A stretch of DNA of 64,000 nt from Prochlorococcus marinus str. SB. Lineage in GTDB: Bacteria > Cyanobacteriota > Cyanobacteriia > PCC-6307 > Cyanobiaceae. Position numbers and translations under genes: made by a program. The notes below the pieces were generated by a model. It was given only the letters and a program-made list of their open reading frames with translations. It ran no database searches and had not been told where the DNA came from. How positions within the stretch are numbered: position 1 is the stretch's first letter; each line of letters opens with the position of its first letter. The DNA lies in the NCBI RefSeq assembly GCF_000760115.1, contig NZ_JNAS01000001.1, positions 248,001-312,000 on the forward strand, read 5' to 3'. Of the stretch, positions 1 through 4,074 are shown one piece after another.

Positions 1-1538
1 TCTCCTAAATACATTTCATTATTATCAGAATCCATTGAAATTGGACCAATAATTGAAAATCCATATTTTGTAACCATTTCCCTTACGATATTTGTCGCAT
101 AAGAGATATCATTCATGGAGCATTGAGTAATTTCACCTTCACCAAAAACTATGGTTTCTGCTGCTCTTCCAGCTAAAGCAACTTCAATTTTTGAAAATAA
201 TAATTTTTTTGAAATCAATCCACTAGAAATTACATCTTCGTCAGGACATATTTTTGTATATCCTCCTATAAATCCAGATCTAGGTAAAATCGTAATTTTA
301 TCAACTGATTCAATTCCATTTCTCACAGCAGATACAATTGCTCTACCTACTTCGTTATAAGCAATAATTTTTTTCATATTAGGAGAAGTTATTAATGAGC
401 TTCTCAGGCCAATAGTAATTTTATCAAGAGCATTTTCTATATGAAGATCACTGATTAATTTAGATTCGTCTCTTGCACAGTGAATAGCACTCTCGTTCAT
501 CAAGTTTGCAAGATCTGCTCCCGAAAATCCAACTGTTCTAGAAGCCCAATATCCTAAGTCAACTTCGCTTGAAAGTGGTTTTGAAAGTGAGTGAACTGAA
601 AGAATTTTTTTTCTTCCATCTAAATCTGGAAGCATTACTTCAATTTTCCTATCAAATCTACCTGGTCTTAATAATGCTGCATCCAAAATATCTGGTCTAT
701 TAGTTGCTGCTAAAACAATAATCCCAGAATTATCAGCAAAACCATCTAATTCAGTTAGAAGCTGATTAAGGGTTTGTTCTCTTTCATCATTTCCACCGCC
801 GATCCCAGACCCTCTTTGCCTACCAATGGAATCAATTTCATCAATGAAAATTATACAAGGAGATTTTTCCTTAGCCTTGGAGAACAGATCACGAACTCGG
901 CTAGCTCCAACACCAACAAAAAGTTCTACAAACTCTGATGCCGATATTGAGAGAAAAGGCACTCCTGATTCACCAGCAATTGCTTTAGCTAATAATGTTT
1001 TACCTGTTCCTGGTGGGCCTATTAGAAGAACTCCCTTAGGAACTTTTGCTCCAAGATCTTCAAATTTCTTTGGTTCTTTCAAAAATGTTATTACCTCTTT
1101 TAATTCCTCAGCGGCTTCAGGGACACCAGCTACATCATCGAATCTCGTTTCTACATCATCAATAGTTACAAATTTAGCTTGATTTTTGGTAAAACCAAAA
1201 GCTCTTGAAGCCAATTTTGATGTACTCCTCAAGATTAAGACTATAGCTAATATGAAAATCAGGAAAAGACTTATTGAAGCAAATGAATTAGCAGCTGAGG
1301 CTTCTTTTCTACTGTTGTTAATAGTTAGATCTACCTTATTTTCAGTAGCCTTTTCAAGGATTAATTGATCGTTGTAGAGGATAGGTATTTTAAATTTATC
1401 GCCATTTTTATACAAAACATCAATTTCTCTCTGTCTTGGATAGAAAAATATTGATTCTATTTTCCCCGTCTCTATATCTTCTAAAAGATCAGAATAACTT
1501 GATTTAGAATCTGAATATGAGAATTTTGATCTAAACAC
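1..1538 (-). CDS. FtsH-family AAA+ membrane protein, protease site lost (3' end beyond window)
   Basis: FtsH proteins are membrane AAA+ zinc proteases that unfold and degrade membrane proteins such as damaged PSII subunits. The reverse-strand reading begins with GTG at 1538; an in-frame TAA lies just upstream. It shows a short luminal-type domain, one membrane segment (about residues 75-95), Walker A GPPGTGKT, Walker B IIFIDEID and the second region of homology ([19 protein letters not shown]). The AAA+ motor therefore looks intact. In the M41 domain the expected HExGH is NEVGR (342-356), so both zinc-binding histidines are gone, although the downstream ND that supplies the third ligand remains. 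The usual first membrane helix is also missing. I infer an unfoldase or partner subunit like chloroplast FtsHi, not a protease. The C-terminus lies outside the window. Confidence 0.9.
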
Positions 1539-3091: not shown

Positions 3092-3439
3092 ATGAAATCA
3101 TGGACATGTATAGAAAATTGTGGAGCTTGTTGTAAATTCGACTTGAACGAAAGAAGCGATTTGGCTAACAAACTTAACAAAGAAGATATAGCTTTGATAA
3201 ATTCGATGATGGCTAAAGACGGTTGGTGTAAAAACCTGGACAGAGAAAATAAAAAATGCTTAATTTATGAAACCAGACCACATTTTTGCCGTGTAAGTGA
3301 ATTTTCAACTTTATTTAAAGGATATTTGAAATCTGGTGATGAATTTTTAATAGATTGCTGCAAACAACATATTTCATCAAATTATGGATACCAAAGTAAA
3401 GAGATGAAAACTTTTAAAATTGCTGTTTCAGAAAAATGA
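3092..3439 (+). CDS. YkgJ-type cysteine cluster protein
   Basis: This 115-residue protein has a conserved cysteine cluster: CIENCGACCKFDL near the N-terminus, CKNLDRENKKCLIY in the middle, RPHFCRV and a later DCCKQH. The pattern matches the UPF0153/YkgJ family, predicted to bind zinc or iron. There is no signal peptide, so it is probably cytoplasmic. Its stop overlaps the start of the first UPF0016 transporter by 4 nt, so it probably shares an operon with putative divalent-cation transporters. Whether it is a metal-binding partner is inference. Confidence 0.8.
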   Translation: MKSWTCIENCGACCKFDLNERSDLANKLNKEDIALINSMMAKDGWCKNLDRENKKCLIYETRPHFCRVSEFSTLFKGYLKSGDEFLIDCCKQHISSNYGYQSKEMKTFKIAVSEK

Positions 3440-3762
3440 ATAGTAAATTAGAAAAAAAGGAAAACAATATAGAAAAAAGTTTTTTTTCTATATTCATAAC
3501 GACTTTTACAACAATCTTTATTGCTGAACTTGGCGATAAAACTCAGATAGCCACATTGATGCTTTCTGCGGAATCGGGCAAGCCAATTATTGTTTTTCTG
3601 GGAAGTTCTCTAGCATTAATAAGCTCTAGCATAGTAGGAGTTCTTATTGGTAAATGGGTATCAAAAAAAATATCTCCTAGCAAATTTGCTTTATCTACTG
3701 GTGCTTTAATGATAATAATAAGTATATTTTTAGCTTATGAAACTTTCAAAAATTATTTTTAA
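3436..3762 (+). CDS. UPF0016/GDT1 half-transporter, first copy
   Basis: UPF0016 (TMEM165/GDT1, Mnx) proteins are cation/proton exchangers moving Mn2+ or Ca2+; cyanobacterial members remove manganese from the cytoplasm. This 108-residue protein carries one copy of the hallmark motif, AELGDKTQIATL (about residues 31-42), and three membrane segments. Standard family members have two such halves in one chain. The partner half is the next gene, which starts at the base after this stop. The two products most likely form an antiparallel heterodimer. The start overlaps the Cys-cluster gene. Confidence 0.85.
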   Translation: MNSKLEKKENNIEKSFFSIFITTFTTIFIAELGDKTQIATLMLSAESGKPIIVFLGSSLALISSSIVGVLIGKWVSKKISPSKFALSTGALMIIISIFLAYETFKNYF

Positions 3763-4074
3763 ATGGTTTTAAGTCTATTACTATCAACATTTCTAACAGT
3801 TTTCATAGCTGAATTAGGTGACAAAACTCAACTAGCTACTTTAACTATAAGCGGCACTTCAAATAAACCATTAGCAGTTTTTCTGGGATCTTCTTCAGCA
3901 CTTGTTTTTGCGAGTTTACTGGGAGCTTTAACAGGCGGTTCTATTTCAAGTTTTTTACCTGAAGTAGTTCTTAAGTCAATTGCCTCCATTACATTTTTGA
4001 TTATTGGTATAAGGCTTTTTATCAACTCTTTCACTATTGAAAAAGAAGAAAAAGAAGAGAAAGAAAATAATTAG
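3763..4074 (+). CDS. UPF0016/GDT1 half-transporter, second copy
   Basis: This is the second 103-residue half of a UPF0016 cation exchanger. It contains AELGDKTQLATL near residues 16-27, three hydrophobic segments and a highly charged Glu/Lys C-terminal tail. The ATG follows the TAA of the first half with no spacer, which fits coupled translation and equal amounts of the two subunits. The two halves differ enough that both are probably needed, each giving one acidic ExGDKT motif to the transport path. Mn2+ is the likely substrate from work on cyanobacterial relatives. Confidence 0.85.
   Translation: MVLSLLLSTFLTVFIAELGDKTQLATLTISGTSNKPLAVFLGSSSALVFASLLGALTGGSISSFLPEVVLKSIASITFLIIGIRLFINSFTIEKEEKEEKENN

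Follow-up and report, generated by a model that had tools for sequence, protein, structure and literature searches.

The ftsH gene and its zinc site

The window, a 64,000-nucleotide stretch of Prochlorococcus marinus str. SB (G000:C1:248001-312000), begins within an ftsH gene carried on the minus strand. The reading frame (positions 3-1538) has a GTG start at 1538 and is open past the window start. The full-length gene encodes 584 amino acids (G000:C1:247787-249538, stop left out), of which residues 1-512 lie at window positions 1-1538 and the remainder before the window start. Judged by published primers and tree position, the gene is the paralogue known in picocyanobacteria as FtsH4, a homologue of Synechocystis FtsH1. 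Positions 342-356 read tctacctacttcgtt on the plus strand; the reverse complement, aac gaa gta ggt aga, gives Asn-Glu-Val-Gly-Arg (residues 395-399) at the position of the FtsH zinc motif HExGH, and re-reading the sequence thus bears out the substitution on which a preliminary description of this DNA had centered. NEVGR falls inside a match to the Pfam Peptidase_M41 profile (PF01434) that covers residues 384-574 and scores 152.8 bits, the cut-off being 29.9. By sequence comparison, the third metal ligand position, Asp477 (108-110, minus strand), remains Asp.

The ATPase half of the protein matches the AAA profile PF00004 at 158.5 bits, and its motifs, also on the minus strand, are as intact as first described: Walker A GPPGTGKT (996-1019, residues 174-181), Walker B IIFIDEID (831-854, residues 229-236), and, at 648-707, the second region of homology, bounded by ATNR (residue 278) and RPGRFDR (residues 291-297); the pore loop FVG (912-920, residues 207-209) can be added to these. 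The sole strongly hydrophobic segment by hydropathy spans residues 85-103 (1230-1286, minus strand), with none N-terminal of it, and lies within a helix modeled by AlphaFold2 at residues 81-113; the model of the window part (mean pLDDT 66.4, pTM 0.42) is too weak for side-chain claims. At 648 bits against a cut-off of 600, the protein belongs to the FtsH family TIGR01241, for which the orthologue in genome G070 falls just short (589.7). With NEVGR it lacks the HExxH that marks an active zinc metalloprotease of the FtsH/peptidase M41 type, and it fits the descriptive definition of an FtsHi pseudoprotease, an FtsH homologue with ATPase motifs and no HExxH. The NCBIfam model is nevertheless named "ATP-dependent zinc metalloprotease FtsH", which masks the loss in automatic annotation. 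A family search finds four FtsH proteins in this genome, and the remaining three retain HExGH.

Upstream, the divergent neighbor rpmF (ribosomal protein L32; 1670-1840, plus strand; PF01783, 40.6 bits) serves as a synteny marker. Downstream of ftsH lie a 250-residue hydrophobic open reading frame with no Pfam match (L005 112-696) and an AhpC/TSA peroxiredoxin (L005 712-1464). Elsewhere in the window, tandem open reading frames at 3436-3762 (108 residues) and 3763-4074 (103 residues) each hold one whole GDT1 domain (PF01169, 78.9 and 73.8 bits), a pair that resembles the halves of a cation exchanger split over separate genes.

Assignment of the paralogue

In a 71-row quick tree, which contains neither the Synechocystis FtsH1 sequence nor plant FtsHi sequences (nor do the other trees), the gene joins the FtsH1-type clade of other cyanobacteria (support 99) and is separate from the remaining three paralogues; the picocyanobacterial branch within that clade has a support of 100. 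The published names can be attached through Table 1 of PMC6300248, in the available text of which qPCR primers are given for "FtsH 4" of strains MED4 and MIT9313. These are exact matches to L363 (G015) and L076 (G131) among the orthologues, and the two genomes are on that basis identified as MED4 and MIT9313, respectively; the MIT9313 reverse primer matches L071 (G089) as well. The same text takes Synechocystis FtsH1 as the counterpart of picocyanobacterial FtsH4, calling the relation "less obvious than the others", and pairs picocyanobacterial FtsH1 and FtsH2 with Synechocystis FtsH2 and FtsH3, respectively. Its FtsH1 primers match genes of the L002 type and its FtsH2 primers genes of the L001 type. 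Published primers and homology statement together make the L001 type Synechocystis FtsH3-like and the L003 type FtsH4-like. Both FtsH3 primers of PMC6300248 gave no match among the fetched loci, a set that left out the FtsH3 genes of MED4 and MIT9313.

Distribution of the substitution

HExGH is missing from all 84 orthologues read in one clade, which comprises high-light Prochlorococcus (56 genomes), the SS120 genus, the MIT9211 genus, and two further genera (g56 and g4). Four genomes carry strain names by our assumption: G070 is taken as SS120, G138 as MIT9211, G084 as RCC307, and G022 as MIT9515. The preliminary description had asked whether NExGR is fixed in orthologues and held that an intact HExGH in close strains would count against it. 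Close orthologues agree with the proposed fixation to the extent that no HExGH occurs within the clade; beyond it, however, the motif is intact in 55 of 55 family orthologues read, MIT9313 included, each with HE[VI]GH plus the third-ligand Asp. The loss therefore arose inside Prochlorococcus. Residue 477 is still Asp in 71 of the 84 dead orthologues.

Every one of the 56 high-light genomes (52 from the genus sample and four from family samples) is substituted, 55 with NEVGR and one with NEGGR. An orthologue was found in 52 of 61 sampled genomes of the window's genus, at 81-100% identity, and in 22 of 22 that are at least 90% complete. The other genera are more varied. Orthologues from 10 of 14 genomes of the SS120 genus comprise four HEIGK and one each of NEAGK, NEVGR, NEIGR, YEIGR, NEIGI, and NTIGR; those from 14 of 21 g56 genomes read QIIGK (12), QVIGR (1), and QIIGR (1). 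Two of three genomes yielded the gene in both the MIT9211 genus (NEVGK and HEAGR) and g4 (RNASK and QQVGR). Genomes without a full match in the clade's genus samples are 51 to 88 percent complete, and fragments in G208 and G232, which may be cut orthologues, were left out of the site counts.

The family sample of 71 genomes divides into 55 with an intact orthologue, 12 with a dead one (G063 included), and four in which the gene was not found (G074, G086, G119, and G133). That these four and G063 might belong to lineages that have lost the gene was considered and rejected after a search for rpmF in 10 genomes. In the five where rpmF was found, the ftsH gene adjoins it (5/5), and G063 itself has an orthologue next to rpmF (L405, G063:C1:286600-289300), with the site RNASK. 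G074, G086, G119, G133, and G164 yielded neither rpmF nor an FtsH1 orthologue; because rpmF was also not found there, the region is probably missing from these assemblies. The G063 orthologue has odd ATPase motifs (GSPGTGKT and RAGRFDK) and an M41 score of only 95.9 bits, and its motor may itself be starting to erode. A generic scan of genome contigs for FtsH motifs returned matches mostly from other bacteria.

Origin and order of the loss

Fourteen dead rows form one clade (SH-aLRT 96) in the FtsH tree, a quick tree in which checks flag long branches (L103 and L104) and, for most dead rows, an unusual letter composition. A second, careful tree covers 23 genomes and two other FtsH paralogues, with G133 represented by a single one; here the 11 dead genomes and G063 group together (12 rows) with a support of 85/94, which is moderate and below the tool's star. 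A single origin is the simplest account of these trees, and parallel losses in neighboring lineages are less likely.

The second zinc histidine is replaced by Arg or Lys in 83 of the 84 dead orthologues and by Ile in one. The first histidine is retained in five, leaving 79 in which both are gone, and the glutamate is retained in 67 and gone in 17. Because the second histidine is substituted in all 84 while the first survives in 5/84 and the glutamate in 67/84, the second was probably lost first. When the motif columns are left out of a 47-row quick tree, the second-histidine position takes at least eight letter changes, and two when Arg and Lys are counted as one state. Across 41 dead rows, 19 protease-domain columns are mostly Arg or Lys. 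Five of them have no basic residue in any of six active rows used for comparison; of these five, the second-histidine position shows one exception and each of the others between 9 and 19. Near-fixation relative to the other newly basic columns, together with the small number of state changes, suggests a structural role for the conserved Arg/Lys.

Selection and conservation of the motor

The ATPase motifs are nearly invariant among dead orthologues: ATNR in 84/84, FVG in 83/84, RPGRFDR in 82/84, and GPPGTGKT in 81/84. No internal stop occurs in the 52 high-light matches, and in-frame stops seen in G099 and G116 proved to precede the start codons by a short distance, outside the genes. Across nine high-light genomes, the NG86 dN/dS of the dead gene is 0.084 (ATPase part 0.050, protease part 0.139). 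Two active paralogues have lower values, 0.028 (FtsH2-like) and 0.017 (FtsH3-like). The three overall figures are medians over 30, 22, and 31 pairs, respectively, out of 36, pairs with dS outside 0.05-1.5 having been dropped. The ratio is thus below 1, as anticipated. The contention that the frame shows no decay and is under selection stands insofar as the gene is uninterrupted and under purifying selection, but that selection is looser than on the two active paralogues.

When FtsH1-type protein distance is divided by the mean for the two paralogues, 28 active pairs give medians of 5.0 (ATPase) and 3.5 (protease), and 36 dead pairs give 6.4 and 5.4. Active picocyanobacterial FtsH1 is therefore itself fast, and loss of the site came with only moderate additional loosening. 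The dead protein evolves faster than the paralogues in both domains, and the extra loosening of its protease domain beyond that of the ATPase domain is modest.

Comparison with known FtsH systems

Synechocystis FtsH1 (Slr1390), a subunit of the FtsH1/3 complex, resembles the Prochlorococcus protein in published homology (PMC6300248, available text), ATPase motifs, and FtsH1-type branching. The FtsH1-type genes of other cyanobacteria differ from it in having HExGH, found in all 17 tree rows from other families, and a hydrophobic N-terminus, both of which the Prochlorococcus gene is without. According to the available text of PMC11287208, Synechocystis FtsH3 forms hetero-oligomers with FtsH1 (FtsH1/3) and with FtsH2 (FtsH2/3), the former of which is essential and exerts control over nutrient-stress regulators. 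A precedent for a dead subunit comes from Arabidopsis type-B FtsH2, in which mutation of the catalytic site indicated that not all catalytic sites are needed (Zhang 2010, as cited in the part of PMC6019477 available): chloroplasts develop when a dead type-B subunit is combined with live type-A ones. The dead subunit was engineered in Arabidopsis, whereas in Prochlorococcus it is natural and fixed, and its heteromer is a predicted one.

The preliminary description also drew a parallel to the inactive FtsHi proteins of chloroplasts. Arabidopsis FtsHi1-5 share with the Prochlorococcus protein an FtsH-like sequence with a lost zinc motif; the table in PMC11266112, as far as available, lists TEVGV for FtsHi1, NEAAM for FtsHi2, and WAAGR for FtsHi5. 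The parallel holds as one of kind and is unlikely to be one of lineage. Plant FtsHi are of mixed ancestry (PMC9020784, available portion), whereas the Prochlorococcus gene branches with FtsH1 and its nearest relatives are active. Shared descent of the loss is unlikely since the FtsH1 neighbors of the clade, in trees built without plant sequences, are active.

An inactive FtsH of Prochlorococcus is already in print. In its available part, PMC6460958 counts a single FtsHi for strain SS120 of P. marinus and reports no such protein for the chlorophyll-a cyanobacteria that it examined, and PMC8197885, likewise available in part, repeats the SS120 count. The orthologue in G070, taken here as SS120, reads NEAGK and is very probably the protein counted in PMC6460958. 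That report, in the part available, concerns one strain and gives no paralogue name, clade, loss order, or neighbors. What appears to be new is the identity of the paralogue, the clade-wide extent of the loss, its order, and the conserved Arg/Lys. No paper on the clade-wide loss was among the matches listed in literature searches, whose scope excluded most subscription journals.

Proposed role

From the substituted motif we infer that the site is dead and that proteolysis has been lost. The reading given most weight, at slightly better than even odds (about 0.52), is that the gene encodes a protease-dead type-B subunit that has kept its motor and would assemble with active FtsH3 in a mixed hexamer. 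In the ancestor of the clade, the second zinc-binding His would have been replaced by Arg/Lys, a change that should stop zinc binding and proteolysis; the first His, and in some lineages the glutamate, would have followed, with the AAA+ motor kept throughout. Like Synechocystis FtsH1, the dead subunit would join the active type-A subunit, which corresponds to Synechocystis FtsH3 and is encoded in the window genome at G000:C2:401905-403758. FtsH3 is the presumed partner by analogy with the Synechocystis complex, and stoichiometry and substrates are likewise presumed. Dead subunits would hydrolyze ATP, pull on substrates, and complete the ATP sites of their neighbors, with cutting done by FtsH3 subunits only. 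As a further step, the Arg/Lys may occupy the emptied zinc site and keep the protease domain in shape. The combined, more specific version, a half-dead FtsH1/FtsH3 hexamer fixed once in the clade ancestor with Arg/Lys as a structural cation in place of zinc, is doubtful. If it is true, Prochlorococcus, the ocean's most abundant photosynthetic bacterium, would run the same unfolding motor on half as many cutting sites. The amount of FtsH4 may be small, since the isoforms said to balance the MED4 ftsH transcript pool are 1, 2, and 3, with FtsH4 unnamed in that connection (PMC6300248, available text).

Other roles are conceivable for a protein whose motor and pore-loop motifs are intact around a dead protease site. 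It could form its own hexamer, or one without an active subunit, and act as a membrane-bound unfoldase or translocation motor in the manner proposed for chloroplast FtsH12/FtsHi, for which the FtsHi literature (PMC11266112 and PMC9020784, available parts) offers a precedent. This is unlikely: the nearest studied relative, Synechocystis FtsH1, works with FtsH3 (PMC11287208, available text), and three active FtsH are present as possible partners in both G000 and G070, where all four were read.

It is likewise improbable that the gene is on its way out, its function reduced and held by weak selection or as a competitor limiting FtsH3 assembly. A dN/dS above that of two active paralogues, fast divergence in the SS120 genus and in G063, and the RNASK site of G063 point in that direction; the odd ATPase motifs of G063 and the faster evolution relative to paralogues also fit slow decay. 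Against decay are the absolute value of the ratio, the uninterrupted frames of the high-light matches, the presence of the gene wherever rpmF was found, and the retention of Arg/Lys at one site in nearly every dead orthologue.

Retention of protease activity via other ligands is very improbable. Glu396 and Asp477 are still present in the window genome, but both histidines are gone from most of the clade, the glutamate from a fifth of it, and the ligand position holds a basic side chain, which should repel zinc. Sequencing or assembly error is ruled out, and chance with it, as nothing favors error and all 56 high-light genomes agree at both histidine positions with synonymously varying codons (Arg AGA, CGT, and CGA; Asn AAC and AAT).

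A non-cutting FtsH4 would bear on current annotation. PMC6300248 and PMC11262661, in their available portions, treat FtsH4 as an ordinary homologue, with the words "zinc" and "inactive" in neither main text, and the latter assigns to Prochlorococcus FtsH4 a function presumably parallel to that of Synechocystis FtsH1/3. If the Prochlorococcus counterpart cannot cut, this assignment needs correcting. The clade also offers a natural, free-living series of dead states (HEIGK, HEAGR, NEVGR, QIIGK, and RNASK), with live orthologues in MIT9313 and others, useful for asking why AAA+ proteases retain non-cutting subunits.

The N-terminus

FtsH1 of other cyanobacteria has a hydrophobic start ending in AxA-like sites (L109, L111, L113, L115, and L122), and this stretch looks like a signal peptide. 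With the start taken as the farthest upstream start codon, peak N-terminal hydropathy is 1.29-1.95 in 21 other-cyanobacterial loci. Among picocyanobacteria the peak is lower in 19 of the 22 active rows and all eight dead ones. Most picocyanobacterial FtsH1 rows (window 1230-1538 and loci L043-L108) are without a signal-peptide-like N-terminus. Active or dead, picocyanobacterial FtsH1 keeps one strongly hydrophobic segment.
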